Part shown: one piece after another, positions 8,109 to 35,933 of the stretch
Numbering within the stretch: position 1 is the first letter of the stretch
How the letters are laid out: each line of letters starts with the position of its first letter
Source of the DNA: Lentisphaera profundi
Lineage (GTDB): Bacteria; Verrucomicrobiota; Lentisphaeria; Lentisphaerales; Lentisphaeraceae
DNA: 64,000 nucleotides
Direction of reading: 5' to 3'
NCBI RefSeq assembly: GCF_028728065.1
Contig: NZ_CP117812.1
Coordinates: 868,001-932,000 of the forward strand
Position numbers and translations under genes: made by a program
Notes under the pieces: model-generated
Databases searched by the model: none
Seen by the model: only the letters and a program-made list of their open reading frames with translations
Told to the model about the DNA's origin: nothing

Positions 8109-9281
8109 TTACTTTATAAAGGCAGGGATGACTCTTTTGGGAGCTTCAGAGAGCATTTTTCCCATGCCTTTATTATGAGCGGTGCTGATAATGATGAGCT
8201 CTATTTCTGGAAACATGAGGATGAACTGTCCTCCTGCGCCACGACCTGATTTACATAGGTAAGTATTGTTGCCAATTTGGACATCATGACCCCACCAAAA
8301 ATAACCGTAGCTTCTCTGCTCGTTCACATCAATAGCACTTGTAGCCACTTTGATGAACTCCGTAGGGATAAGTTGCTTTCCTTGCCATTGTCCCTCTTGA
8401 AGAATCAGCATTCCCATTTTTAGCATATCTCTAGAGCGGAAAGATGAGCCAGCAGCAGATTTCGGGAGCCCGCTGATGTCGTCTTGCCAACCATAATTCT
8501 TGATCCCCATAGGGATGAGCAATTCACTTTTAATGAAACCTTTAGCGGAGCCGGGTACTACGGCTTCCAACACCTGCATGGCCATAGAGGGGTCTGATCC
8601 TTGGTATTTAAATGTTTTACTATCCTCTGTGATTGGAGCGGTAAGTTCCATATATGTTTGGATTTGTCCCTGACCTTTTAGTTTTTCAGGAGTATTTTTC
8701 ATGACCGTGCTGGCTTTGCTCTTGTCAACACGAATTCCTGAACGCATATGCATCGCCTCATGTAAGCTGATGCTTTCAGTTCCAGCGGCTAAGTTTTTTA
8801 GATCGATGTCTTTAAGGAAGCTAATGACGGGCTTATTAAGATCGCTCATTTTCAAATAACCCAGTTGAATGGCTCTGCCGATCGCTAGTGCAGTATAGGA
8901 CTTGGTGATTGACATTTGGTAATGGGGATAATTAGCTCGTCCGCGTTTGTAGTATGATTCAAACAAAAGCTGATTTTTGTAGTAAATGAGTAGGCTATCA
9001 GTATTGCTATGTTTATTTGATGCAATTTCTTTGGAAAATCCTAGGATTAACTGTGTATCCAATGTGTTTTTATTGAGATCGCCAACTTTGATGCCATCAT
9101 TTTTATCTTTGGGCTTTGTGCTAATAAAAGCTTTCTCTAAATAAGGGATTTTTTTTTCTAGTGTATAGGAAATGTCTTTTGCGTTAAGGTCGGTGACTTC
9201 AGGAGCGAGTCCGTTGTCCGCGAATAAAGTGATGCATGAGGCATAGCTCAGGAACTGTAAAAAAGTGTAGAATTTATTCAT
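8109..9281 (-). CDS. Beta-lactamase-family (class C-like) serine hydrolase, exported
   Basis: This is a 390-aa penicillin-binding-protein/class C beta-lactamase fold hydrolase, probably periplasmic. An N-terminal signal peptide is present (hydrophobic FLQFLSYASCITLF). The catalytic SxxK is SITK in the segment MSITKSYTALAIGRAIQLG, followed by helix-rich text typical of the family. A conserved YGYFWWGHD and a late GRGAGGQF segment correspond to the third motif region. Such proteins are esterases, D-amino-acid peptidases or amide hydrolases; true beta-lactamase activity cannot be inferred. AAGGAT six bases before the ATG supports the start. The gene stands alone on the minus strand between two arms of an inverted repeat, which suggests a cassette that was inserted or is invertible. 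Confidence 0.85.
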   Translation of the reverse strand: MNKFYTFLQFLSYASCITLFADNGLAPEVTDLNAKDISYTLEKKIPYLEKAFISTKPKDKNDGIKVGDLNKNTLDTQLILGFSKEIASNKHSNTDSLLIYYKNQLLFESYYKRGRANYPHYQMSITKSYTALAIGRAIQLGYLKMSDLNKPVISFLKDIDLKNLAAGTESISLHEAMHMRSGIRVDKSKASTVMKNTPEKLKGQGQIQTYMELTAPITEDSKTFKYQGSDPSMAMQVLEAVVPGSAKGFIKSELLIPMGIKNYGWQDDISGLPKSAAGSSFRSRDMLKMGMLILQEGQWQGKQLIPTEFIKVATSAIDVNEQRSYGYFWWGHDVQIGNNTYLCKSGRGAGGQFILMFPEIELIIISTAHNKGMGKMLSEAPKRVIPAFIK

Positions 9282-9395
9282 TTTAATCCTTAATTAATTA
9301 GCTTCATAACACTACGGGCTCAAATCATATTTTTTGACAAAAATTTGTTATTTAAAACGATTACCCATTAAACGGGGCCAAGCGACTCTTAGTCG

Positions 9396-9463
9396 CCTGG
9401 TCAAGGGTCTTGCCAGACCGGCGGATAAAAAGCATGTGCCCATACGGCAGTATCTTGCGGGGA
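9396..9463 (+). repeat. Right arm of the 68-bp inverted repeat around the serine hydrolase gene
   Basis: This is the near-identical inverted partner of 7992-8059. It lies 115 bases upstream of the serine hydrolase start, within a 360-base intergenic stretch (9282-9652) that has no credible gene. Confidence 0.85.
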
Positions 9464-9652
9464 GAGCTTGAGAGAGGCAGTGTCCCTCTGTAGGTAAAGC
9501 ATCATGCCCTTTATTGTGAGTAATCGTTTTAAGTGATGATAAATGAAATTTACGCAAACTTTTGGTAAGTGGATCTTTGCTTGCATCATGTAGTTGTTGT
9601 TTTTCTTAAGTAGCTTAGTTTTAAGACAATTTTATTTAGGGTGGCGCTGCAG

Positions 9653-12532
9653 ATGTTTGATGGATTAATAAAGAATTTTAATGGTGAGATTTTTCTTGAT
9701 GAAAAAATGCGCACTCTTTATTCGACGGATGCTTCTGCCTACAAAGAACTGCCCTTAGCGGTTTGTTACCCCAAGGATGAAGCTGACCTACAGCGGCTCA
9801 TTGCATTTGCACATAAAAACAAAATCAGTTTAATCCCTCGTACTGCAGGGACTTCTTTGGCTGGCCAAGTAGTGGGTGATGGTATTATTGTCGATGTCTC
9901 TAAGTATTTCACTGAAGTCCTAGAAATCAATAGTGAAGAAAACTTTGTGCGAGTTCAAGCGGGAGTCGTCCGTAATGAATTAAATCAACAATTAGAAAAA
10001 CACGGTAAACTTTTTGGGCCTATAACCTCAACAGCAAATAGAGCGATGATGGGTGGCATGCTAGGGAATAATTCCTGCGGACAAAATTCACTGCGGTATG
10101 GAAGTGTAAGGGATAAGTTGATTTCTGTCAAAGGTTTTTTAAGTGATGGTTTAGAAGTGGAATTCAAAAGCCTCTCTGAGTATGAGCTCGAAACTAAACT
10201 GAGCCTTGAAAGTCTAGAAGGGGATGTTTATCGCAAGCTGATTGATAGGTTAAGAGAGTCACATGCAGAGATAATTAAGGCCTATCCCCATCCCGAGATC
10301 CATCGCAGGAATACGGGTTATGGTTTAGATATTTTGGCTGCGATGAAGCCATTCTTTAAAGAAGGCGAAGATTTTAATCTAGCCAAGCTTATTGCCGGAT
10401 CAGAAGGGACTTTACTTTTTGTCACTGAAATGACGCTAGAGATAGAGCCTTTGCCTTCGAAGTTTCGTTTATTGCTCTGTCCGCATTTTGATGACATCAA
10501 CAAGGCTTTGGAAGCTAATATCCTTAGTTTAAAGTATGATCCGATGGCAGTGGAATTAATGGATCGCTATATCCTCGAGTGCACCGCAGGTAATCGCATG
10601 TATAAGGATATGCGTTTTTTTGTTCAAGGGGATCCAGAAGCTTTATTGTTGATAGAACTGGATGCCGAGACTGAAGAAGACTTAAAGAGGAAGTCGGATG
10701 AGCTCAGTGAGGAGCTCGATTTGTCAGGCTTATGCTCGACTTACTCTATTGTCGAAGCGAAAGATATTGCCAAAGTTTGGGCTTTGAGAAGTGCTGGTTT
10801 GGGTTTGCTTTCCAATGTTCCTGGTGATGCCAAGGCCGTGCCAGTGATAGAGGATACCTGTGTAAGAGTAGCAGACTTACCTGAATATATTAAAGAATTT
10901 AATGTAATTCTCGATGCTCAAAATTTGTACTGTGTTCACTATGCTCATGCCGGCTCAGGGGAGCTGCATTTACGGCCGATTATTGATTTAAAAACAGTAG
11001 CGGGGCATCGTCAATTTCGTGAGATTGCCGAGGCAATTGTGCATTTGGTAAAAAAATATCGTGGTTCTCTTAGTGGTGAGCATGGCGATGGCCGTTTGAG
11101 AGGCGAATTCATTGAATCTATTTTGGGTAAAAAGGTCTATTCTTTCTTACTCGAAGTCAAGCAAGTTTTTGATCCCAATAATATTTATAATAAGGGCAAG
11201 ATAGTTAATACTCCAGCGATGGATCAAGATTTGCGTTATCAAGCTGGTGAGCTAACGCCTGAATTTGAGAATCTCTATGACTTTTCTCACGAGCAGGGTT
11301 ACTTACCTGCGGCAGAATTCTGTAATGGTTCTGGTGATTGTCGTAAATCTGCTTTGATGGGCGGTACGATGTGTCCTTCTTTCATGGCTGAAAAAGCAGA
11401 GCAATACACGACGAGAGCGCGTGCCAATATTCTACGGGAGTATTTGAGAAAACCATTTGTGAAGAGTCCTTTTGAGCACCCCGAGATAGCGGATGTGATG
11501 GATAGTTGCCTATCATGTAAGGCCTGTAAGTCCGAGTGCCCTTCCAATGTGGATATGGCAAAATTGAAATCTGAATTTCTCTATCAAAAAAGTAAACATC
11601 AGGGTTTTTCTTTGCGATCCTTAATAATTGCGCACTCGCATCAAATTGTGAGTGTAGGGGCCTATTTTCCTAGGCTGTTTAATTTCTTAAATAAACAAAA
11701 ATTTGTTAAGAGCTTTTTGCGTTTGTCGCAAAAAAGAGATTTGCCGACTTTGAGTCAAAAATCATTTAGGTCGTGGTTTCGTACACATGTTCAAGAGGGC
11801 TTTACAAAGAAAGTCTACTTTTTCGTAGATGAAGTAAGTGATTATTATGAGAGTGACCTTGCCATTAAGGCAGTGAAACTCCTCAATCATTTGGGCTATG
11901 CAGTTTTGTGCCCCGAGCATGCAGAGAGTGGACGTGCAGCTTTTTCCAAAGGTGTCTTAGATCATGGCAAGCGTTGTGCGGAGAGGAATGTTCAGGTGTT
12001 CTCTCGCCTAGTGAGTAGTGAGACACCCTTGATAGGCTTGGAGCCATCGACGCTGCTTTGTTTCAGAGATGAATATATAGATATTTTGCGAGGAGCGCAA
12101 AAACAAGAGGCGAAAGAAATGGCTCAGCATAGCTATTTATTGGATGAATTTTTATCAACTATCTCTAGCGAGATAGCAGAGGGCTTATTTACCGATGAAG
12201 TCAAAAGTATAGAGATTCATGCCCATTGTTTTCAAAAATCTTTAGCCAAGCCGGAGACTTTGACCCGAGCATTGAGCATTCCAAAGAACTTTAATGTGAA
12301 ATTAATTAGTTCGGGCTGTTGTGGAATGGCGGGTTCTTTTGGCTATGAAGATGAGCATGAAGTAATGTCAGAAAAAATAGCCAATTTGACACTAATTCCC
12401 CACGTAAAACAAATGCATGAGCAGGTCATCTTAGTTGCTTCAGGCACAAGCTGCCGTCATCAAGTAAAGGACCTCGCTGATAGGGAAGCCTTGCATCCAG
12501 TAGAAGTTCTATTTGATGCGATGAGGAATTGA
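9653..12532 (+). CDS. FAD-binding oxidoreductase fused to a 4Fe-4S/CCG domain (YdiJ / D-2-hydroxyacid dehydrogenase type)
   Basis: This large dehydrogenase (about 959 aa) should oxidise a D-2-hydroxyacid such as D-lactate or D-2-hydroxyglutarate and pass electrons on through Fe-S clusters. The N-terminal FAD_binding_4 domain shows RTAGTSLAGQVVGDGIIVDV, GGMLGNNSCGQNSLRYG and GSEGTLLFVTE. The FAD-oxidase C-terminal domain ends with SGEHGDGRLRG. Next come DCRKSALMGGTMCPS and a ferredoxin-like CLSCKACKSECP, then a C-terminal region with a CCG motif (SSGCCGMAGSFGYE). The domain order matches E. coli YdiJ. A GTG at 9641 is also in frame, but AGGGTGG at 9638-9644 is well placed for the ATG at 9653. 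No partner genes lie nearby, as is usual for YdiJ-type proteins. Confidence 0.9.
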   Translation: MFDGLIKNFNGEIFLDEKMRTLYSTDASAYKELPLAVCYPKDEADLQRLIAFAHKNKISLIPRTAGTSLAGQVVGDGIIVDVSKYFTEVLEINSEENFVRVQAGVVRNELNQQLEKHGKLFGPITSTANRAMMGGMLGNNSCGQNSLRYGSVRDKLISVKGFLSDGLEVEFKSLSEYELETKLSLESLEGDVYRKLIDRLRESHAEIIKAYPHPEIHRRNTGYGLDILAAMKPFFKEGEDFNLAKLIAGSEGTLLFVTEMTLEIEPLPSKFRLLLCPHFDDINKALEANILSLKYDPMAVELMDRYILECTAGNRMYKDMRFFVQGDPEALLLIELDAETEEDLKRKSDELSEELDLSGLCSTYSIVEAKDIAKVWALRSAGLGLLSNVPGDAKAVPVIEDTCVRVADLPEYIKEFNVILDAQNLYCVHYAHAGSGELHLRPIIDLKTVAGHRQFREIAEAIVHLVKKYRGSLSGEHGDGRLRGEFIESILGKKVYSFLLEVKQVFDPNNIYNKGKIVNTPAMDQDLRYQAGELTPEFENLYDFSHEQGYLPAAEFCNGSGDCRKSALMGGTMCPSFMAEKAEQYTTRARANILREYLRKPFVKSPFEHPEIADVMDSCLSCKACKSECPSNVDMAKLKSEFLYQKSKHQGFSLRSLIIAHSHQIVSVGAYFPRLFNFLNKQKFVKSFLRLSQKRDLPTLSQKSFRSWFRTHVQEGFTKKVYFFVDEVSDYYESDLAIKAVKLLNHLGYAVLCPEHAESGRAAFSKGVLDHGKRCAERNVQVFSRLVSSETPLIGLEPSTLLCFRDEYIDILRGAQKQEAKEMAQHSYLLDEFLSTISSEIAEGLFTDEVKSIEIHAHCFQKSLAKPETLTRALSIPKNFNVKLISSGCCGMAGSFGYEDEHEVMSEKIANLTLIPHVKQMHEQVILVASGTSCRHQVKDLADREALHPVEVLFDAMRN

Positions 12533-24859: not shown

Positions 24860-26131
24860 TTATTTGTTTTTATTGAGTTTGAAAAAAATGCCTATGAAAC
24901 AAAAATTTACAAGTACTTTGCTTGAGTAAAACTGATCTCCACTTGTGGAGACAAAGAAAAGCAACGACATGAAATACAACAATATGTAGGGATGTGAATG
25001 GTATCGTAAAAAGTTAATAAACATATTAAATATAAATGCTGAAAAAAGTGTCAAGCCCAATAAGCCACTTGATAATAAGATTGAAATGAAAACATTGTGA
25101 GGATAGTCAAGTCCCCCTGAATGGAAGTTATTCTTATAATCATAGTGATATTGAAAGCCTCTGCCAAGAATTAGCTCATGAAATTCATACTCTTTTAGTA
25201 TTGCTAGACCATACGTTAGCCTATTTGTTCTAGAGCTAATGAGTTTACTGTCATTATTTGATGAAATGTCCATAGTGTTTAGTCTAAACTCTAGTTTATC
25301 TAATTCCCGTTGTGATGTTAGCTCGTGGTTAGAAAAAAAGTCAATATGAAATGCTGAAGACAAGATTATGGCTAAGAGTGTGATTACATAAAAACTTATT
25401 CGGAAAATTTTTAAGGATATTTTCTTAGTTGTGATTGTGCGAAGGAGCTTATGTATAGAGCAAATGAAAATGATAATGAAAAGTATGATAAATATCCTTC
25501 TTGATCCAGAGAGCATCATGGCACTGAAAATCAGCAGGCTAGCTGAAAGGAATGAAAAAGTACGAAGTCTAGCCCTTTCTTTTCTTAAAAAATCTATAAT
25601 ACAGAGGAAAGGAAATAGGAGTCCTAGAGAAAAAGAGTTATAATCTTTTCTTAGAGAGGTCCCCCATGGATATTGTGATCCTGGAGTTTCAAAAAAAGAG
25701 ATATGGTGCCCCTTTAGTAGTAAAGCAAATTTTATTAATGCAATAATCGAAACGATAATACCTATAGATATAGACATAGATTTAAATTTGTTAAGAAAAT
25801 ATTTTAAATTTTCTCGATTTTTCAATATAGACAGACCTATTAGGAGAGAAAGACTACAGCTTATTAGGTTGTTGATACTGGTTTTGTTTAACAAATCTAT
25901 TTCGCCAGAAATTGTGATTGAAAAAATAAAAGTGATTGCAAGACTAAGATATAGTTTTATATCAAAATTCCATGTATACTTAGTCTTTAGTATTATAGGA
26001 AATGATAATAGACCTATGGACCCAACAGATATAGCATACAGAGGGAAGCCATAAGGGAATATCAGACCTAATATGAGTATGACATAAGTTGACGAGTATA
26101 GGTGGATTAAGGAATTGTGTGAAATTTTCAT
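24860..26131 (-). CDS. O-antigen/capsule polymerase (Wzy-like), polytopic membrane protein
   Basis: This 423-aa protein is dominated by hydrophobic helices (about ten to twelve) with one large loop at roughly residues 255-345. The pair SGSRRIFIILFIIIF after a helix and the loop end YPHNVFISILLSSGLLGL match the O-antigen ligase/polymerase superfamily pattern, where the conserved PHN/H in the large periplasmic loop is functionally important. In a locus with Wzx and Wzz the likely role is joining repeat units on the periplasmic face. A second member of the superfamily (36063-37607) is better placed as a ligase or alternative polymerase. Confidence 0.82.
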   Translation of the reverse strand: MKISHNSLIHLYSSTYVILILGLIFPYGFPLYAISVGSIGLLSFPIILKTKYTWNFDIKLYLSLAITFIFSITISGEIDLLNKTSINNLISCSLSLLIGLSILKNRENLKYFLNKFKSMSISIGIIVSIIALIKFALLLKGHHISFFETPGSQYPWGTSLRKDYNSFSLGLLFPFLCIIDFLRKERARLRTFSFLSASLLIFSAMMLSGSRRIFIILFIIIFICSIHKLLRTITTKKISLKIFRISFYVITLLAIILSSAFHIDFFSNHELTSQRELDKLEFRLNTMDISSNNDSKLISSRTNRLTYGLAILKEYEFHELILGRGFQYHYDYKNNFHSGGLDYPHNVFISILLSSGLLGLTLFSAFIFNMFINFLRYHSHPYILLYFMSLLFFVSTSGDQFYSSKVLVNFCFIGIFFKLNKNK

Positions 26132-26215: not shown

Positions 26216-27598
26216 TTAATCATTAGGATGTTGTGTTAGTATATCGATAAATATTTGTTTATGGACGTCGGTTGTTAATGATGAATTGTGCCAAAGAAGA
26301 GTAAAGGTTCCGTTGAATTTATAACAAGTGTTCTTCAAGGTTGCGGCCAAATGACTTGTGTTGTTGTAATCATTATAAATGCCAGAGAGTGTGCTAGCTT
26401 CCATGAAAATTAGTGGTCTTTGGATGAGTTTGAGTGGAGATCTGCTACTGAGGTCGTACATCGTGAATTCGTAACAAATACCACAACGAAAGCCGGGTTT
26501 TTCTGCGTAGTAAAGGCTTGAATCATAAGTCATGCCAGAGTTTTCCAGAATGGCTGGAGTTTTCATGATATTATATCTCAAATAATGTTGTCGGCCCCCA
26601 ATATTTATAGTATTAATGCCTTCGCGTTTTGTGATTTTTTGAAGCTTATCAAATTCAAACTTGTGTTGTGAGAGTGTTTGATAAGTATTGTAACTGCCAT
26701 GTAAGCCTATTTCATGTCCCCTTGCGGAAATGCTTTGAAGTAAACCTGTTATCGGGGATTCATCTATATTATATTTACCATCGTAATTTAAATTTGTTTT
26801 ATCACAGAGGAAATAAAAAGCACACTTTAAATTATTTTCTTCACATGATTTCATCATCCAATCAAAAGTATAAAAGGGGTCTAAGCTATAATCACCTTTC
26901 CTCATTGCAGCGAAGTTTCGATAACGTTTCCATGCAAGTTTAAGAGATTTTCGTTTTAGGAGATCGCTGGCGATTTGCCTTAATTCTTTTTTTAGAAAGC
27001 CTGAATTGGGGTTATATGGTGTGTCGACATCACAACTAATTAATTCTTTGTATTGCCTGGTTTTTCGTCGGAGTTTGGGGGATAAAGTACTAAGACAAAA
27101 CCATAATATTTCGAGGTATTCATTAATAATCGGTCTAGCCAGAAAGTCTTCTTGGTAAGCAAGTGAAGCAGTGACAGGAAAACGATCATGTTTATCTCTA
27201 TCTGTTTTTATAGCCTCTTCATAACGAGATAGCATAAAAAAAGAGGAACCAAAAATATCGATATCAAGTTGTATGTGATTTTCGGATATTTCTAAATTTG
27301 GCTTACCATAAATTATAGGTAGTGATGTAGATGGGAGGTCGACTGTTTTACTTAAACCACTTATGTCCAAATGTGCCAGAGGTTGTTCAGGTAGTGATTG
27401 AAGTTGCATCCATTTTTTGTCGGCGATGGTAAAAAAGTCATCGTTTATCTTGAGAGTTTTATTTTCATAGAGAATGGCTATGTCAGAACGGCTTTCATAT
27501 ATGACGGTGAATTCTAGTCCTAAAAAATCCCACAAAATGACTTTGAAAATATATTTGCGTTCATTAATGCAGTTATGAGGACATTTTATAGTGATCAT
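26216..27598 (-). CDS. Polysaccharide deacetylase-family protein with an N-terminal extension
   Basis: The C-terminal half has the NodB-like fold: the metal-site aspartates in SCDVDTPYNP, the HxxxH-like segment GHEIGLHGSYNTY, and a late LLWHNSS motif. The first ~180 residues form a separate alpha/beta extension (DUF7033-like arrangement) found in capsule-locus deacetylases. Predicted function is removal of acetyl groups from an amino sugar of the polymer or its lipid-linked precursor. No signal peptide is visible, so a cytoplasmic precursor is the more likely substrate. It lies between the FemAB-like gene and the polymerase gene in the same direction. Confidence 0.8.
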   Translation of the reverse strand: MITIKCPHNCINERKYIFKVILWDFLGLEFTVIYESRSDIAILYENKTLKINDDFFTIADKKWMQLQSLPEQPLAHLDISGLSKTVDLPSTSLPIIYGKPNLEISENHIQLDIDIFGSSFFMLSRYEEAIKTDRDKHDRFPVTASLAYQEDFLARPIINEYLEILWFCLSTLSPKLRRKTRQYKELISCDVDTPYNPNSGFLKKELRQIASDLLKRKSLKLAWKRYRNFAAMRKGDYSLDPFYTFDWMMKSCEENNLKCAFYFLCDKTNLNYDGKYNIDESPITGLLQSISARGHEIGLHGSYNTYQTLSQHKFEFDKLQKITKREGINTINIGGRQHYLRYNIMKTPAILENSGMTYDSSLYYAEKPGFRCGICYEFTMYDLSSRSPLKLIQRPLIFMEASTLSGIYNDYNNTSHLAATLKNTCYKFNGTFTLLWHNSSLTTDVHKQIFIDILTQHPND

Positions 27599-27605
27599 TA
27601 CTAAA

Positions 27606-28049
27606 CTACCTAAGAAGAGATTTTGTTAATTGAGCTATTTTTAAGAGTTTAGAATTAGTTTTGGTAATGTTGAAATATGGTTTCTGAATGGCGCCAAATG
27701 CACGGAAAAAGCTTTCGATCGGCTCGATCATAGAACCCTCAAAATTAAAAGACGTTGACACAGTTGAGGCAAATTTAATAGCTTCCCACATACATAAACT
27801 TGTAGCTCCGCTATTGCGTAGCTCAGGGTCTCCGCCACCCATGATATAATAAGCTGATTCTTTATCCCAAATTAAGTAAACTCCAGCATGATGACGACCC
27901 TCAGGGTCTACTGCAATAAAAATTTTAGATGATTGATGATCTTGACAGGCTTTATGTAGTTTTTTAACATAACTTTCCGTGTAAGGAAGGTTTTTACTCT
28001 GGCGTGTAAAGATCATTTTATTTAAGTGAAGAAAATCTTTAAGGTCCAA
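27606..28049 (-). pseudogene. C-terminal half of a frameshifted FemAB/BioF2-like acyltransferase
   Basis: This 147-codon frame (opening with TTG, not a true start) contains the C-terminal GNAT-like half of a FemAB/BioF2-like protein: GVYLIWDKESAYYIMGGGDP, then FNFEGSMIEPIESFFRAFGA, the typical end of the family. It continues upstream without a stop in its own frame through codons reading ASGKYALTVEQN. This directly joins the end of the preceding frame if one base is restored. It is therefore one broken gene with 28064-28564. No ribosome binding site precedes it. Confidence 0.8.
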
Positions 28050-28063
28050 ATTTTGTTCAACTG

Positions 28064-28564
28064 TTAAGGCGTATTTTCCGGATGCTTTTTAATATCTGTT
28101 CTAATTTTACTTTGAAATTTTTCATAGGTTTTATCTAGATTCGAGAGGTCTTCAATAAGGTATGTATATTTTGTGGTTTGCTGAAAGCCTTTCCAGTAAA
28201 ATGGTAACCAATTTTGATAGTTATAATGCCAGCTTTGTGAAAATTGGCTAAATGGGGGCAATTGGTCAATAAGTTCAGTCATCATTTTTTTTTCTTGTGA
28301 AAGACGTTTTGTATAATTGCATTTAGCTGGAGCTAACCATGGCCCCCAAATCTGGGTGAGCGGTGGCATGGTACAATAAGAAATGAAACCCTTTCTTTTA
28401 ATAATTTGATAAGGCATTGAAGCTATGATTTCTTTACCTTTTACAACTAATGCTACGTCCCAATTATCGAAACCACAGGCTAAGTCTAACCACCATGATT
28501 GGCTGTAAATGGGGATGTCATTGTTAGAATTGCAATATTCACGGTAACGTCTTTTTTTTGTCAT
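28064..28564 (-). pseudogene. N-terminal half of a frameshifted FemAB/BioF2-like acyltransferase
   Basis: The 166-aa frame has the N-terminal half of a FemAB/BioF2-like aminoacyl- or acyltransferase (IYSQSWWLDLACG near the start, PLTQIWGPWLAP, and FQSKIRTDIKK at the break). It then runs into a stop eight codons after a run of five A (minus strand; 28086-28090). Adding one A restores the frame into 27606-28049, giving a protein of about 325 aa, normal for the family. Either a real loss of function, a slippery-site variant, or a sequencing error in the homopolymer would explain it. Intact relatives in polysaccharide clusters are thought to attach amino-acid or acyl groups. Confidence 0.82.
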
Positions 28565-28566
28565 GA

Positions 28567-29148
28567 TTAATTATACTCTTTAATAAAAACTTGTCCCATC
28601 AAGATTATCACTCTAAACTTATTTGTTTCTTTGAAACCTGATTTTTCTATTCCTTTTATCGATGCTGTATTAGTTTGGTCGGTGCTTATGTATAACTTAT
28701 TTTTTGTGGCTTTAGCAATATAAGATAATGTTGACGGATAAGCTTTTTGCCCTCTAAATTGTTTCGCTGTTTCGCAGTTGTGTATATAGCTGGCTCCTTG
28801 GGGAAGTGTGTAGTTGAATTTGTATGTAAAGGTGACTGCATGCTTATGATTACTTACCATAGAGCGATGAATGCATTGGCCACCTAAGAATGTTAAATAA
28901 AGATCAATACCTGTTAAAGCTTGTTTTCGTATCCATTGATATTTTTGCTCACTTTCAAAATGTAAGAGATTAATGATTGAATCATGGTCAGCTTTTATCA
29001 CGCGTAATTTATTGTTCACTGAAGATCTTTCTTCTTGATAAGAAAATAATATTATAGTTTTGTAGCTAAAAAGGTTTAGTTTCAAGTGTTTTATCATTTT
29101 CAATATTTTATTCATAGCGGGATTTAGTTTAAATAGTTTTTCATTCAT
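28567..29148 (-). CDS. GNAT-family N-acetyltransferase-like protein
   Basis: This 193-aa protein has a GNAT-like C-terminal part: an acceptor region with the cysteine-containing IHNCETAKQFRGQKAYP, resembling the R/Q-x-x-G-x-G/A acetyl-CoA loop, and NTASIKGIEKSGFKE, the classical final helix-strand of GNAT enzymes. The first ~45 residues are basic and hydrophobic (HLKLNLFSYKTIILFSYQEE) and may touch the membrane. It lies two bases upstream of the FemAB-like frames, suggesting a joint role in modifying a sugar of the repeat unit. Substrate is unknown. Confidence 0.7.
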   Translation of the reverse strand: MNEKLFKLNPAMNKILKMIKHLKLNLFSYKTIILFSYQEERSSVNNKLRVIKADHDSIINLLHFESEQKYQWIRKQALTGIDLYLTFLGGQCIHRSMVSNHKHAVTFTYKFNYTLPQGASYIHNCETAKQFRGQKAYPSTLSYIAKATKNKLYISTDQTNTASIKGIEKSGFKETNKFRVIILMGQVFIKEYN

Positions 29149-29209: not shown

Positions 29210-30475
29210 TTATATGTTTTTGCCTTTAGAGAATTTCCAAGTCATTAAACCGTTAATTATAAACATGACAGAATAAGAACCGGAAATAGCTTTAAGAGAA
29301 AAGAGTAAATCTTTAAAATAATGACCAAAAATAAAAGATATTATTATTAAAGAAAATAATATGGTTTGCCACAGTAGATCTTGTTTTTGCTTTTCCGCAA
29401 TCATAAACATGGTGCTTAAGGGGCTTAGATTAAAACGTAAATAAAACATTGGTGTAAGGATTTGTGCATAGTGGCCTGAGATTTTCCAGTGAGAACCGAA
29501 GATGAATTCAAAAAGAGTAGGAGCAGTATAATAGAAGACAATAAATGGAACGGTAGAGATATAAAATAATTTTTTTAATGTTTTTATATAAACTTTTTGA
29601 CAGTTTCCGTTGTGAGTATAGGCATGACTAGCCTCCTGCCTAAATACATCTCCGATAGATTTTGCGATTATACTTGCAGGAGTAGATATTACTCTTTGTG
29701 TCAGAGCAAAAAAACCCGCTGAAGCTGAAGAGAAAAGTACATTCATAAGAATGATAGTACTTTGTGCTGCGGCACTGTTAAGCATATGAGAGAGTATTAA
29801 AAATTTTGGAAAATCACTAAACCTTTTGGCAAGAGCAATTTTGTTTAAACGGTGGGTTTTTTTAAAAGTGTCATGGTCTTCTTTCCATACTGTAGTAGTG
29901 AGGCTAATCAGAGAGATAAGTTGGCCAATTAAACTTCCTCCAATTAAACCAATTGCCGATAACCCGCTGACACCACAAAGTAATTGTGTAGATGAAGTTG
30001 TTCCAGTTTGGTATATTCTGTTGCGAGCAATGGATTTATAGTCTCGTTTTCTGTTGCACCAATAATAGAGACTTTGATAAATCCCGGTGATTAGTACAGA
30101 AAATGGAATTAAATATAGCCATGTTTTAATTTCAGGATTACCCAATAATCGAGATATAGTGCCATTTAAGAAAAATACCGATATCATTAGAGCTAAGCTG
30201 CTATATGCAGTTATACTTATAGAAAGAATCGTTATATTAGCCGCATCAATATCTTTTCGAGGTATCATAATTGCTAATTCATATCTGCCTGTTGCAATTA
30301 TAGAAATTATTGATATTAAAGATATATATAAAGCAAACAGGCCAAACTGTTCAGGAGTATAGATTCTGGTTAATATAGGACTTATCGCAATTGGAATTGC
30401 TTGAGCAATGGAAGTTCCGGTTATAAGTGTAAGTATACTTTTGCTAGTCTGGTTGCTAGGTTCGGTTCTATTCAT
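29210..30475 (-). CDS. Oligosaccharide flippase (Wzx-like, MOP superfamily)
   Basis: A 421-aa polytopic membrane protein with about twelve hydrophobic helices throughout. The start SILTLITGTSIAQAIPIAISPILTRIY resembles the first helix and loop of Wzx/RfbX flippases (xPILTRxYTPExFG). It should move the undecaprenyl-linked repeat unit across the inner membrane before polymerisation. It sits between wbpE and the acyltransferase-like genes in the same direction. Confidence 0.9.
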   Translation of the reverse strand: MNRTEPSNQTSKSILTLITGTSIAQAIPIAISPILTRIYTPEQFGLFALYISLISIISIIATGRYELAIMIPRKDIDAANITILSISITAYSSLALMISVFFLNGTISRLLGNPEIKTWLYLIPFSVLITGIYQSLYYWCNRKRDYKSIARNRIYQTGTTSSTQLLCGVSGLSAIGLIGGSLIGQLISLISLTTTVWKEDHDTFKKTHRLNKIALAKRFSDFPKFLILSHMLNSAAAQSTIILMNVLFSSASAGFFALTQRVISTPASIIAKSIGDVFRQEASHAYTHNGNCQKVYIKTLKKLFYISTVPFIVFYYTAPTLFEFIFGSHWKISGHYAQILTPMFYLRFNLSPLSTMFMIAEKQKQDLLWQTILFSLIIISFIFGHYFKDLLFSLKAISGSYSVMFIINGLMTWKFSKGKNI

Positions 30476-30505: not shown

Positions 30506-31642
30506 TTAAGACTGTGAATTGTTGGATTTATTGACTTTTTTAATGACCAAAGATGCAGTGTCTTTACTTATATATCCCGACATGGGGATACTAAAGACTC
30601 TTGTTGATATTTTTTCAGCAATAGGGAAATCACCTTCTATATAAGTTAAGTACTTAAAGGCCGTTTGCAGATGTAAACATTTTGCATAATAAATGACGGA
30701 AGGTATCTCTTCATTTTTTAAATTCTGCATGATTTCCTGTCGAGTAGTAGAGTTTTCTGCACGTAAAGAATACTGTGCCCAGGAACTAATAAAGCCAGTG
30801 GGTGTTTTTGGTGTTAGCAAAAAATTATTTAATAAGGAGGAGTTATAATGTCTTGCCACGTCATTACGATTACTTAACTCTTGCGGGAAGTCTGTAAGTT
30901 TTTCCAGGAGAATCGCAGCTTGGATTGTGTCGAGGCGACTGTTCATGCCAATGCGCACATTATCGTATTTGTCTGAGCCTTTACCATGGACTCTGTAGGA
31001 GCGTAAGAGTTCGGCTATATCATCATCATTGGTAAACAAGGCCCCGCCATCACCATAGCAACCCAATGGCTTAGCAGGGAAAAAGCTCGTTGTGGCAATG
31101 TCGCCAAAACTACCCGCTTTTTGTCCATCGATTTCGCCACCAAAGCCTTGCGCGGCATCTTCGATGACCAGCATATTATATTCTTTGGCAATTTTATTTA
31201 ATTTCGGATAATCAGCAGGTAATCCGAAAAGGTCGACAGGCATTATAGCTTTGAGCTTTAATTTCCCTTCATCCTTGATTTTTATAATGCGCTTCCTGAG
31301 ATCTTTTGGACAAATGTTAAATGTCTCTTCATCTGAGTCAACAAAAACTGGTGTCGCACCGACAAAAGAAATGGCTTCGGCAGTAGCAAAAAAGGTGAAA
31401 GTAGGGCAGAAGACGGCATCACCGGGACCAATATTGAGAGCCATTAGAGCCAATTGTAAAGCATCAGTCCCATTTGCACAAGTAATGACGTGTTTAACTC
31501 CGACATATTCAGCAAGTTTTTGTTCTAACTCAAGTACTTCCGGACCCATGATATATTTCCCATGATCTAGAACCGTATGGATTCGTTCATCAATACGACT
31601 TTTAAGGTGCTTGTATTGGCTTTTAAGATCTATAAATTGCAT
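30506..31642 (-). CDS. wbpE: UDP-2-acetamido-2-deoxy-3-oxo-glucuronate aminotransferase (WbpE/WlbC-like)
   Basis: This PLP enzyme should place an amino group on C3 of the UDP-3-keto-GlcNAc-uronate made by the adjacent oxidoreductase. It opens MQFIDLKSQY and shows TCANGTDALQLALMALNIGPGD, the PLP-binding aspartate in VIEDAAQGFGGE, and the PLP lysine K191 in FFPAKPLGCYGDGGAL. 378 aa and the sequence feel match WbpE of Pseudomonas and WlbC of Bordetella. It follows wbpD and wbpB in the same operon, which strongly supports the assignment over other DegT-family members. Confidence 0.9.
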   Translation of the reverse strand: MQFIDLKSQYKHLKSRIDERIHTVLDHGKYIMGPEVLELEQKLAEYVGVKHVITCANGTDALQLALMALNIGPGDAVFCPTFTFFATAEAISFVGATPVFVDSDEETFNICPKDLRKRIIKIKDEGKLKLKAIMPVDLFGLPADYPKLNKIAKEYNMLVIEDAAQGFGGEIDGQKAGSFGDIATTSFFPAKPLGCYGDGGALFTNDDDIAELLRSYRVHGKGSDKYDNVRIGMNSRLDTIQAAILLEKLTDFPQELSNRNDVARHYNSSLLNNFLLTPKTPTGFISSWAQYSLRAENSTTRQEIMQNLKNEEIPSVIYYAKCLHLQTAFKYLTYIEGDFPIAEKISTRVFSIPMSGYISKDTASLVIKKVNKSNNSQS

Positions 31643-31665
31643 AATTTCTACTTAATTTGTGAGAT

Positions 31666-32235
31666 TTAATATTCTCTGGTTACCGTGCCAGACTTGAGCT
31701 GGTATATATCACCTGTGTGCGGACAAGTACATTGTCCACTACCCGTCAATGGAAGATCTAGTCGTTCCCCATAAGCGGACATCCAAGCTATTTGTTTTGC
31801 AGGTACGCCAACCATTAGAGCATACGCAGGAACATCTTTATTCACAACTGTACCTGCACCAATAAAAGCATTTTCTCCAATTGTTACTCCACACACAATG
31901 GTGCAGTTTGCGCCTAGTGTGGTGCCCCGCTTTACAAGCGTATTGCGATACTCATCTTTTCGACTAACGGCCGAGCGTGGGTTATACACATTGGTAAAGA
32001 CCATTGATGGGCCGCAAAAAACATCGTCTTCTATAGTGACGTTGTCATATACTGAGACATTATTCTGGACTTTAACATTATTTCCAATCGATACTTTATT
32101 GCCGACGAAGACATTTTGTCCAAGAGAGCAAGCCTCTCCTATATTCGCTCCGGAGCATATATGTACCCAATGCCAAATTGAGGTGTCTTTGCCAATCTGA
32201 GCACCAGGGTCAATTATTGCAGTATTGTGAATCAT
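31666..32235 (-). CDS. wbpD: UDP-GlcNAc3N-uronate N-acetyltransferase (WbpD/WlbB-like)
   Basis: This 189-aa left-handed beta-helix acetyltransferase consists of hexapeptide repeats nearly throughout ([20 protein letters not shown], then [20 protein letters not shown]). It has the typical loop [18 protein letters not shown] and an end with [11 protein letters not shown]. It should acetylate the C3 amino group, giving UDP-2,3-diacetamido-2,3-dideoxyglucuronate. A C-terminal pair of cysteines (CTCPHTG) is an addition seen in some members. It lies between wbpB and wbpE. Confidence 0.92.
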
Positions 32236-32244
32236 CGATTCTCC

Positions 32245-33303
32245 TTAATAATGCAATGGAAAATTAACAGTTTTACCATCTCGAGCCGAAATGTACGCTC
32301 CAATAAGAAGTTCGAGAGATTTTAGGCCTTCGCGACCATCGGTTTCAGGTTCAGCTGTACCACGAAGGACATCTACGATATTTTTATAGTAAAGAGGATG
32401 GCCAAAACCATATACTGAAGTCGTTTCATAATTTGCATTCTCGACTTCGGCGTCGTAATCTTTGGCCTCGGCAAAATTCCATTCCTGGATTTCATTTACA
32501 GCTAAACCACCAATACGAACGGTACCTTCTGATCCTAGGATGGTGATACTTCCTTCGAGATTTTTTGGATATGTACACATGGTTACGGCCATGGAGCCTA
32601 GAGCACCATTGCGCCATCTTATATTCAATACGCCAGTGTCTTCTACTTCAATATCTCTTTCTCTTGTTGCCATCATTGCTTGTACTGATTCTACGGGGCC
32701 AATAAGCCAGTCAACAAGATCTACGTAATGAGATGCTTGATTCATAAAAGCACCACCATCTAATTCCCAAGTACCACGCCATTTTGCTTGATCATAGTAC
32801 TCTTGAGGTCGAGTCCAAAAAACATTAAGATGAACCATGTTAATACGACCAAATCTTTTTTCTTCAACCGCTCTCTTTAAAAGTTGGAGTGTTGAGTTAC
32901 GACGGTTTTGTTTGACAACAAAGAGGTGTACAGATGCTTTGTCGCATGCTTTGACCATATCGAGGCCATCTTGCCAGCGAGTCGCCATTGGCTTTTCTGA
33001 AATAACATGAACTCCCGCTTGAGCAATAAGAACGGCCTGGTGGGGGTGAATTCCACTTGGAGTACAAATACTAACGGCATCAAGCTGTTCATCTCTAAGC
33101 ATGTTTTCTAACTTATCATAGGAATTTACGTGATAGGTTTCTTTTGCAAGAGTCAAAGCTTTTTCATCATTGTCACATATAGCAACGAGTTCAAAATCTT
33201 CTTTATGTGCGTCAATTGAGCCAAAGTGATTTTTAGCAATGCGTCCACAGCCAAGAACAGCTATACGGATTTTTCGACCAATAATTTCATCTGTATTTAA
33301 CAT
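32245..33303 (-). CDS. wbpB: UDP-GlcNAc-uronate 3-dehydrogenase (WbpB/WlbA-like Gfo/Idh/MocA oxidoreductase)
   Basis: The enzyme oxidises C3 of UDP-GlcNAc-uronate using bound NAD+, which homologues regenerate with 2-oxoglutarate. The N-terminal Rossmann motif is LGCGRIAKNHFGSI. The Gfo/Idh/MocA signature EKPMATRWQDG and the catalytic region GGAFMNQASHYVDLVDWLIG follow, with a tryptophan-rich NVFWTRPQEYYDQAKWRGTW segment typical of WlbA. 352 aa fits. It is flanked by wbpA and wbpD, in the same order as the pathway steps. Confidence 0.92.
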   Translation of the reverse strand: MLNTDEIIGRKIRIAVLGCGRIAKNHFGSIDAHKEDFELVAICDNDEKALTLAKETYHVNSYDKLENMLRDEQLDAVSICTPSGIHPHQAVLIAQAGVHVISEKPMATRWQDGLDMVKACDKASVHLFVVKQNRRNSTLQLLKRAVEEKRFGRINMVHLNVFWTRPQEYYDQAKWRGTWELDGGAFMNQASHYVDLVDWLIGPVESVQAMMATRERDIEVEDTGVLNIRWRNGALGSMAVTMCTYPKNLEGSITILGSEGTVRIGGLAVNEIQEWNFAEAKDYDAEVENANYETTSVYGFGHPLYYKNIVDVLRGTAEPETDGREGLKSLELLIGAYISARDGKTVNFPLHY

Positions 33304-33318
33304 TATATTTATCCTTTC

Positions 33319-34596
33319 TTAAAGTCTATCTGTAATAATATTTTTAGGCAAAGCAGATTTGATATCGTAAACCACCGAATTTTCATGTGTCAATTCCGCA
33401 AAATCGTACTCAAGGAATTCTTTGTGATTGACGGCTAAGACAATCGCATCATAATCAGTAGCAAAAATCATTTCTCTGTTAACTAAATCAAAGCCATATT
33501 CATGTCTCACTTCATCTGTATCGGCCCATGGGTCAAATACATCTACAGCACAGCCAAATTGTTTTAGCTCTTCAATAACATCCACAGCACCTGAATTACG
33601 GATGTCAGGACAGTTTTCTTTGAATGTCACTCCTAGTACAAGTGTTTTTGCTCCGGAGACGCGGTGGTTTCGATGAATCATTAATTTGACTACTTTTTGG
33701 GCTACGAAATTGGCCATGTTATCATTCAGGCGACGTCCCGCTAAAATGATTTCAGGATGATAATCAAGCTCTTCAGCTTTATGAGTTAAGTAGTAGGGGT
33801 CAACACTAATACAGTGTCCTCCAACCAAGCCAGGTCTAAATGGAAGAAAGTTCCATTTAGTTCCTGCAGCTTCTAAGACATCTAAAGTATCGACGCCTAC
33901 TCTATCGAAAATCAATGCTAATTCATTCACCAAAGCAATATTTAAATCGCGTTGAGTATTTTCAATCACCTTTGCCGCTTCGGCAACTTTAATAGATGTT
34001 GCCTTGTGAGTGCCTGCGGTAATTATGGATTTGTAAAGAGCGTCAACAAAGTCTGCTGTTTCAGAAGTTGAACCTGAAGTTACTTTCATGATATCGGGTA
34101 GACGATGTTGCTTGTCGCCTGGATTGATACGTTCAGGGCTATAGCCTGCAAAAAAGTCTGTATTAAATTTTAAGCCGGATATTTTCTCTAATATCGGTAC
34201 GCAAACTTCTTCTGTTGCACCTGGGTAAACGGTAGATTCATATATGACTACATCTCCAGCTGCAATCACTTCTCCTAACATTGCAGAGGCTTTTTCAAGT
34301 GGAGATAAGTCGGGACGTTTATAGGCGTCTATCGGTGTGGGTACCGTGACGATATAGACATTGGCTTTTTTTAGAGATTCTGTATCGTTACTAAAAGATA
34401 ATTTTGTAGCGGCTTCTAACTCTGCCTTAGATACTTCTAAAGTAGAATCGTTGCCTGAAGATAGCTCATTTACTCTATCCTTACTGATATCAAAACCTAG
34501 TGTGTTATGTATTTTACTAAATTCTACAGCGAGGGGTAAGCCGACGTAGCCTAGGCCAAGTACCGCAATGCCCCTAATTTCAACTCCTTCAATCAT
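33319..34596 (-). CDS. wbpA: UDP-N-acetyl-D-glucosamine 6-dehydrogenase (WbpA/TviB type)
   Basis: This NAD-dependent dehydrogenase makes UDP-GlcNAc-uronate. The Rossmann motif GLGYVGLPLAVEFS is near the N-terminus, then PTPIDAYKRPDLSPLEKAS, ESTVYPGATEEVC, GYSPERINPGD and the catalytic cysteine in LVGGHCISVDPYYLTHKAEE. The HCISVDPYYL pattern separates the WbpA/TviB/WecC group from UDP-glucose dehydrogenases with SCFKKD, such as the one at 14139-15503. The start overlaps the Wzz-like gene by four bases (ATGA), so expression of the pathway is coupled to the chain-length regulator. Confidence 0.94.
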   Translation of the reverse strand: MIEGVEIRGIAVLGLGYVGLPLAVEFSKIHNTLGFDISKDRVNELSSGNDSTLEVSKAELEAATKLSFSNDTESLKKANVYIVTVPTPIDAYKRPDLSPLEKASAMLGEVIAAGDVVIYESTVYPGATEEVCVPILEKISGLKFNTDFFAGYSPERINPGDKQHRLPDIMKVTSGSTSETADFVDALYKSIITAGTHKATSIKVAEAAKVIENTQRDLNIALVNELALIFDRVGVDTLDVLEAAGTKWNFLPFRPGLVGGHCISVDPYYLTHKAEELDYHPEIILAGRRLNDNMANFVAQKVVKLMIHRNHRVSGAKTLVLGVTFKENCPDIRNSGAVDVIEELKQFGCAVDVFDPWADTDEVRHEYGFDLVNREMIFATDYDAIVLAVNHKEFLEYDFAELTHENSVVYDIKSALPKNIITDRL

Positions 34597-35933
34597 TTTA
34601 ACTCCCCTTCATTCTTGCAATTGATATAATTACGCTCTTTAAGAGCATTTAAAAAAATGGCTAGCATACCGCTGAAGATGAAAGCTAGGAAGTTAACAGC
34701 AGTAAATATCAATAATTTTTTTGACATCGCTTTTTGTCCATCGAGTGTTGCTTTTTTAAACACACTGTAACTACTGAATGTAGGAAGGTCCTTATTTAAG
34801 GATGCAAGCTTTTCTTTCTCTATAAGAATTTGTGGAAGTTGTTTAATAAATGGGGTGTCATCTTTTCGGTTTTTGAGAGCTATTAGAGACTGGTCGTTTT
34901 GGATTAGATGAATTTGTTTATCGATGGAGCTTAAAGAATCAAGATAGGCAGCATCATCTTTACGTGAAGATAAAATATCTATTTGGGTCGAAAGGTAATC
35001 GGATCCTTTAAGATATAGAGTATCGGGGTTTTGTTGGAGCTGGATGGATCTGTCGCTGGTGTCGCTGGTGTCGCTGGTGTCGCTGGTGTCGCTGGTGTCG
35101 CTGGTGTCGCTGGTGTCGCTGGTGTCGCTGGTGTCGCTATATTTTTTTATTTGTAGTTTCTGTGCAATGTTTAAAGCGTCTTTATAGCGGTTGATTTTTG
35201 TTTCACGTTTGGCTTTGGCCTCATCAAGTAGAGCTTTTTTTTCTTGTTCTAAGGTTTTAATTTTTTCACTATTTAGAGATTCTTTCCTAGTGATTTCAAA
35301 CATTCTTTCCGATTTAGCGTTGATTTTTAAAAGCTCAATTTTTTCATCTAGGTCTACAAGGCTTGCGCTCTTTAAATTCACGTACATTGAGCTTAGAGTA
35401 GAAGTTACTATTTTATTGGTGTGAAATGTATAGTTGTTGAGTAAGTTGACGGCATTAGCTTGACTGTGAGAGTTGTAAGTTAATCTAACTCTTTGAGGAG
35501 GTAAGGGAGCTCCCTTAGTTTTGCCTGCTACAGGCAGGATGACCTCGAATTTCAAGAGTTTAGCAGCTTCTGTGAGTAATTCTTCTTCAGTGCGGGAGTC
35601 ATCTGTGAAAAGTTTTTCTAAGTAGTTATTTTCTTTGATGAAGTCTTTGAAGTTATCGGGTGATATTAATTCTTTATAGTAGGTTTGAAAAAGATATTCT
35701 GGGCTTATTTTAATAATGCTATTCCGGGTGATTTTCGCAAAATCATTTTCTTTCGGTGAGTTAACGATTAGACTTGTGGTGAATAGTTTTGGTTGAGATT
35801 TTAAAATAAAGTAAGTCGATATTCCCACTATAAGTACTATCCCAAAGATTAGTTTCCATGATTTCACCAAAGTTATTATTACGTCAATAAGATCGATTTC
35901 ATTTGAGAGGCTAGTTTGCTTTACTTCGGTCAT
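34593..35933 (-). CDS. Wzz-family chain-length regulator with a variable tandem-repeat segment
   Basis: This polysaccharide co-polymerase-like inner-membrane protein controls chain length of the polymer. An N-terminal Wzz domain is followed by a transmembrane helix (about 33-52), a long periplasmic coiled-coil part, and a second helix near the C-terminus (about 412-432). There is no ATP-binding tyrosine-kinase domain. Around residues 265-293 lies a perfect repeat, SD followed by nine TSD units, encoded by identical 9-base repeats. Homologues have ordinary helix there, so the insert would lengthen or kink the coiled coil. It is the first gene of the leftward run and overlaps wbpA. Confidence 0.87.
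   Translation of the reverse strand: MTEVKQTSLSNEIDLIDVIITLVKSWKLIFGIVLIVGISTYFILKSQPKLFTTSLIVNSPKENDFAKITRNSIIKISPEYLFQTYYKELISPDNFKDFIKENNYLEKLFTDDSRTEEELLTEAAKLLKFEVILPVAGKTKGAPLPPQRVRLTYNSHSQANAVNLLNNYTFHTNKIVTSTLSSMYVNLKSASLVDLDEKIELLKINAKSERMFEITRKESLNSEKIKTLEQEKKALLDEAKAKRETKINRYKDALNIAQKLQIKKYSDTSDTSDTSDTSDTSDTSDTSDTSDTSDRSIQLQQNPDTLYLKGSDYLSTQIDILSSRKDDAAYLDSLSSIDKQIHLIQNDQSLIALKNRKDDTPFIKQLPQILIEKEKLASLNKDLPTFSSYSVFKKATLDGQKAMSKKLLIFTAVNFLAFIFSGMLAIFLNALKERNYINCKNEGELK
35052..35138. repeat. Perfect 9-bp tandem repeat (nine full copies plus a partial) inside the Wzz-like gene
   Basis: The unit GTCGCTGGT is repeated nine times without a mismatch (35052-35132), followed by six more bases of a tenth unit. 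Because the period is a multiple of three, copy-number change would alter protein length by three residues per unit without frameshift. Complete identity suggests recent expansion or contraction. Confidence 0.97.

Follow-up and report, generated by a model that had tools for sequence, protein, structure and literature searches.

A probably VimA-type transferase gene of a Wbp/Vim cassette in Lentisphaera profundi is read in two frames that change at a short adenine run

Within the window (64,000 nucleotides of Lentisphaera profundi contig NZ_CP117812.1), a gene that probably encodes the VimA-type aminoacyl transferase of a Wbp/Vim cassette is assembled as two open reading frames. We see an even chance that the gene is broken in the organism by a single net one-base shift in a run of five adenines (A5), as a very recent, ordinary loss-of-function mutation. 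A sequencing or assembly error, under which the organism would have an unbroken gene and make the VimA-like enzyme normally, is a serious possibility that falls short of even chances, and the two can be separated only with reads. The cassette lies in a bacterium that is apparently outside the groups in which this pathway was described or noted, and one of its key enzymes is apparently broken.

One gene in two frames

The features of the gene are as follows.

28064–28564, minus strand: N-terminal half of the VimA-like FemAB-fold transferase (ORF calling, tblastn of the read-through, relatives' profile)
27606–28049, minus strand: C-terminal half of the VimA-like transferase (PF13480 Acetyltransf_6 in Pfam, E = 6.9e-9)
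28086–28090, minus strand: A5 run on the coding strand, site of the frame change (sequence, alignment of homologues)
28285–28293, minus strand: A9 run within the N-terminal half, in frame and longer than A5 (sequence)
28552–28559, minus strand: A8 run near the start codon, in frame (sequence)

Judged from sequence, each ORF is one half of a single FemAB-fold acyltransferase. The first encodes 166 aa ending in an off-frame tail, with its frame closed by a TAA at 28064–28066; the second encodes 147 aa from a TTG, and its frame is closed by a TAA at 28089–28091 and hence open from 28088. Because these stops bound the stretch, the frame change is confined to 28064–28091, which agrees with an initial annotation that placed the break directly after the A5 (which reads TTTTT on the plus strand and AAAAA on the coding one). 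The restored reading quoted in that annotation, ASGKYALTVEQN, is the one that the C-terminal frame gives. The join falls on an (R/K)KA motif, the KA of which is present in all of the close homologues aligned (19/19).

For comparison with relatives, a protein-level read-through of 319 aa joining both halves was used as a tblastn query against the loci of 50 relatives, some of which start part-way, at contig ends. The read-through aligned as one segment, with no frame change across the join, in 49/50 relatives, which bears out the original proposal of one FemAB/BioF2-like gene in two pieces. The exception, a Flavobacteriales MAG (L048), has a frame change of its own near residue 250 of the VimA-like gene (L048 8212–8225). 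The read-through is 46–59% identical to its relatives L002–L020, and the halves match the relatives' profile separately and in the right order (positions 1–179 and 150–315 of 317). Of 54 columns that are invariant in 19 relatives, 52 are kept and 2 are changed in the broken gene, which is within the range of the intact relatives (0–5 changed, and 19 in the most distant). Beyond the join, no further stop or frame change was found in the gene. Because it carries no other lesion, the break is either very recent or not real.

The surrounding cassette and the probable identity of the gene

The neighbouring genes were assigned as follows.

33319–34596, minus strand: WbpA-type UDP-GlcNAc C-6 dehydrogenase (TviB model, 577 bits against a cut-off of 592; TIGR03026 over cut-off)
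32245–33303, minus strand: WbpB-type dehydrogenase (3q2i, E = 1.6e-159; 3q2k, E = 3.3e-151)
31666–32235, minus strand: WbpD-type N-acetyltransferase (3mqg, E = 3.6e-94)
30506–31642, minus strand: WbpE-type aminotransferase (4qgr, E = 4e-122; WbpE 3nu7, E = 1.6e-97)
29210–30475, minus strand: Wzx-type flippase (PF13440, PF01943)
26216–27598, minus strand: VimE-type deacetylase, uninterrupted (NF053580, E = 5.3e-46, below cut-off; DUF7033, PF23019)
24860–26131, minus strand: Wzy-type polymerase/ligase (PF04932)

We take 3q2i and 3q2k to be WlbA-type enzymes and 3mqg to be a WlbB-type enzyme. The broken gene co-occurs with Wbp genes A, B, D and E and sits between this set (30506–34596) and the VimE-type deacetylase gene (26216–27598); it is also homologous to single-frame VimA-like genes that precede a VimE-like deacetylase. 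A VimE-like match lies downstream on the same strand in 21/22 of the nearest relatives (in the remaining one, L009, the locus lies at the end of a contig), usually as the next gene, with another ORF between in L015. Because of this conserved downstream gene and the position between the Wbp set and the VimE-type gene, the broken gene is probably a VimA-type aminoacyl transferase of the Wbp/Vim pathway, a name given via relatives and neighbours. The VimE-like gene itself scores 157 bits against the curated NF053580 cut-off of 440; the downstream genes of all ten relatives scanned also match the VimE model, all below the cut-off (54–193 bits). The window's VimE-like protein is 39% identical to the neighbour in L011, and nine of the 50 loci have a WbpD homologue at 70% or more within their 8-kb flanks. 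The nearest bridge to the VimA of Porphyromonas gingivalis or Tannerella forsythia is a Parabacteroides MAG (L039), at 38% identity and with a VimE-like match downstream.

The ORF upstream of the VimA-like gene (28567–29148, 193 aa) has by eye the look of a GNAT acetyltransferase; it gave no Pfam or NCBIfam match and no tblastn match in the 50 relatives' loci.

The reference system is VimA of the Wbp/Vim linking-sugar pathway in Porphyromonas gingivalis and Tannerella forsythia, for which the accessible text of PMC7468200 proposes that the acetyl group at C-2 is taken off by VimE and that Ser or Gly is then placed on the amine by VimA. The same text records that A-LPS is missing from a P. gingivalis vimA mutant and notes vimA-vimE-wbp clusters in Pseudomonas, Aeromonas and Vibrio. 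The likeness to that system, as far as this text describes it, lies in a FemAB/GNAT-type transferase adjoining a VimE deacetylase, with Wbp genes in the locus. The differences are that the gene here is frameshifted, that the host is outside Bacteroidota, with the likeness drawn via relatives and neighbours, and that the locus has its own Wzx- and Wzy-type genes, so that the sugar may serve as a building block of a polymer, not as a link to protein.

Searches in the genus and family suggest where the gene pair came from. No match in the same genus or family was found for the N-terminal half (58 other genomes), for the relatives' profile (38 other genomes, with two weak matches, both only from the same class) or for the VimE-like protein (18 other genomes). 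In a tree, the protein falls within an 18-row set made up of Pseudomonadota and one Parabacteroides MAG (support 95/87). Since none of these searches placed the VimA-VimE pair in another member of the genus or family, horizontal acquisition is probable.

Family and fold

The N-terminal half alone matches no Pfam or NCBIfam model; the C-terminal half reaches 12.6 bits against the Pfam FemAB cut-off of 24 and, among PDB sequences, matches only a designed protein (E = 0.69). The fold was taken from the AlphaFold model of a relative (L011, 58.7% identical to the read-through; 34-row alignment), not from the window protein. This model (pLDDT 95.4) has the double GNAT fold of FemX and FemA, and its best solved neighbours are FemX, FemA and aminoacyl-tRNA-dependent peptide synthases (6snr, E = 2.8e-16; 1ne9; 1lrz). 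The window gene would share fold and double GNAT architecture with the FemX/FemA/FemB aminoacyl-tRNA-dependent transferases; it differs in its low identity (13–16%), its score below the Pfam FemAB cut-off and its substrate, which is not expected to be peptidoglycan. Projected onto the modelled relative, the break falls inside helix 150–161, between the two GNAT halves.

Weak matches to TIGR03019 (FemAB family XrtA/PEP-CTERM system-associated protein) were seen in 26/34 relatives (best E = 1.8e-9), far under the family cut-off (29 bits against 260 for L011). With regard to a sortase link, rhombosortase model matches in the genome were below cut-off (best 41 bits of 84), and the model also matches 14/14 controls. 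Exosortase (EpsH) gave three matches over cut-off (G000:C2:251777-252499, G000:C2:101270-101704 and G000:C1:1321894-1322223), and the PEP-CTERM search gave none in the genome and none in the controls.

Predicted effect on the glycan

By analogy with the characterized pathway, WbpA, B, E and D would produce a 2,3-diacetamido uronic acid nucleotide sugar, from which VimE would then strip the 2-N-acetyl group and expose an amine. The VimA-like enzyme, with its FemX-like double-GNAT fold, would add an amino acid to this free amine (Ser or Gly in characterized relatives), probably from an aminoacyl-tRNA donor. The truncated product would keep the first GNAT half only and should be inactive, because the cut removes six of the seven residues that are invariant across 34 relatives. 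Loss of the enzyme would be expected to give either a polymer with a free amine or a failure of assembly. The initial annotation had suggested that a polymer decoration may be lost or switched: the loss can be sharpened to an amino acid on a 2,3-diamino-uronic acid sugar, which is the decoration most likely affected, and the switch is not upheld. A real lesion predicts that the isolate makes a polymer with a free amine or no polymer; if it is an error, the annotation is to be corrected, and the event is an ordinary one either way.

There is a precedent in P. gingivalis HG66, a wbpB mutant without A-LPS, in which, going by the accessible text of PMC4031482, a single point lesion in a gene of the pathway has cost the strain its Wbp-dependent polysaccharide. 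That case differs in the gene affected, in being a nonsense mutation rather than a frameshift and in that its phenotype was demonstrated.

Mutation or error

The initial annotation had cautioned that the break might be a sequencing error, and this caution holds: the gene is undamaged elsewhere, the distances to its neighbours in the operon are preserved (2 bases separate it from the ORF upstream, and the VimE-like gene starts 7 bases after the VimA-like stop), and the frame change lies within a homopolymer. Against gross homopolymer miscalling, though not against a single error, the A8 and A9 runs of the same gene are in frame, and in 24 other ORFs of the window (30,159 bases) all 28 A/T runs of at least 7 lie in open frames. 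Assembly completeness (96%) is equal to or above that of the congeners (94 and 96), which also counts against an error.

The background rate of frameshifts in the genome bears on both readings. Best hits of 323/920 queries from two congeners covered 330,140 bases of the genome; three events were seen in this comparison, of which one was a fault in the congener G002 and two were left. In an earlier comparison, which also gave three events, one (L076) was left out as its stretch had been picked for a broken-looking sulfatase, one was assigned to G002 by reverse comparison and one was left. The rate of 2 in 330 kb of matched genes is ordinary and counts against an error, being no higher than in the relatives (G001, 1 in 280 kb; G002, 1 in 74 kb). 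At the same time it would be enough for some 30 frameshifts genome-wide, which suits an error, as do two further points: the other frameshifts found in the genome are also in or near short A/T runs, and Antonov et al., in the accessible part of their paper (PMC3711429), expect sequencing errors behind frameshifts that are unclustered and spanned by a BLASTp alignment. Of the two readings, a real and very recent loss of function, at even chances, stays ahead of an error.

The sulfatases of this genome gave at least 151 matches (150 of 251 candidates scored), a richness that, together with the two-contig layout, would suit a Lentisphaera-like host. Among the matches listed, one has a single in-frame TAG (G000:C1:2648852-2649829) and another has a frameshift within a short T run (L076 ~8475–9922, G000:C1 1078475-1079922) relative to an intact copy in G002, to which it is 83% identical on one side of the shift and 73% on the other.

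Switching, recoding and split-enzyme readings

A regulated origin of the frame change is very unlikely. In its general form it would have the A5 act as a switch, by slippage or low-level −1 frameshifting with VimE always on, and so set the share of the polymer that carries the amino acid rather than a free amine; if true, the charge of an acquired Wbp/Vim glycan would be switched in this way.

Slippage at the A5, turning the decoration on and off by phase variation, had been raised in the initial annotation, which also cautioned that an A5 is a short run for frequent slippage. The caution proved apt, and the switch itself is improbable. The lesion does lie in a homopolymer of a surface-polysaccharide gene, where one-base changes would toggle the frame; yet A/T runs of at least 5 are ubiquitous (533 in the 64-kb window), and the site lacks the unusually long simple repeat of a contingency gene, whereas the longer A8 and A9 are in frame. 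None of the relatives is broken at the A5 site, and an A run of at least 5 is present there in only 4/19 homologues (L004, L006, L008 and L020), with lysine and arginine codons varying freely. Phase variation was accordingly rejected as the main reading. No frameshifted or phase-variable vimA was found among literature titles on vimA, which is not proof of absence.

Programmed −1 ribosomal frameshifting on A_AAG (at ATT AAA AAG), which would make the full protein, is slightly more doubtful still. The direction needed is −1 and the frame window is short, and the accessible text of PMC4066793 gives A_AAG as the most shift-prone tetramer in E. coli given a stimulator; without one, according to the same text, tetramers shift hardly more often than background (0.147% against 0.112%). 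Here, the 93-nt stretch that begins shortly before the run is no more stably folded than its shuffled versions (z = +0.44), the heptamer is T_AAA_AAG rather than of the X_XXZ_ZZN form, and 49/50 relatives need no shift. With no structure past the run, and no conserved pairing of a slippery heptamer and a downstream structure among the relatives, this reading was rejected. Two routes of rescue were likewise rejected: transcriptional slippage at the A9 is impossible, since the second frame is closed by the TAA at 28089–28091, and no second copy of the VimA-like gene was found in the genome with the relatives' profile.

The least credible reading is a split enzyme, with the C-terminal half made apart by a restart at the TTG (28049), a start candidate 14 nt past the stop of the first frame, and the halves complementing each other: by eye no Shine-Dalgarno-like sequence precedes the TTG, the break would fall within a helix of the modelled relative, and none of the relatives is split at this point.

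A separate source of variation was noted in the gene of the Wzz-type chain-length regulator (ORF 34593–35933), which contains 9.8 perfect copies of a 9-base repeat at 35051–35138, read as in-frame Thr-Ser-Asp repeats. Changes in copy number could vary a protein spacer with the frame intact, and length variation is more plausibly sought in this repeat than in the A5.
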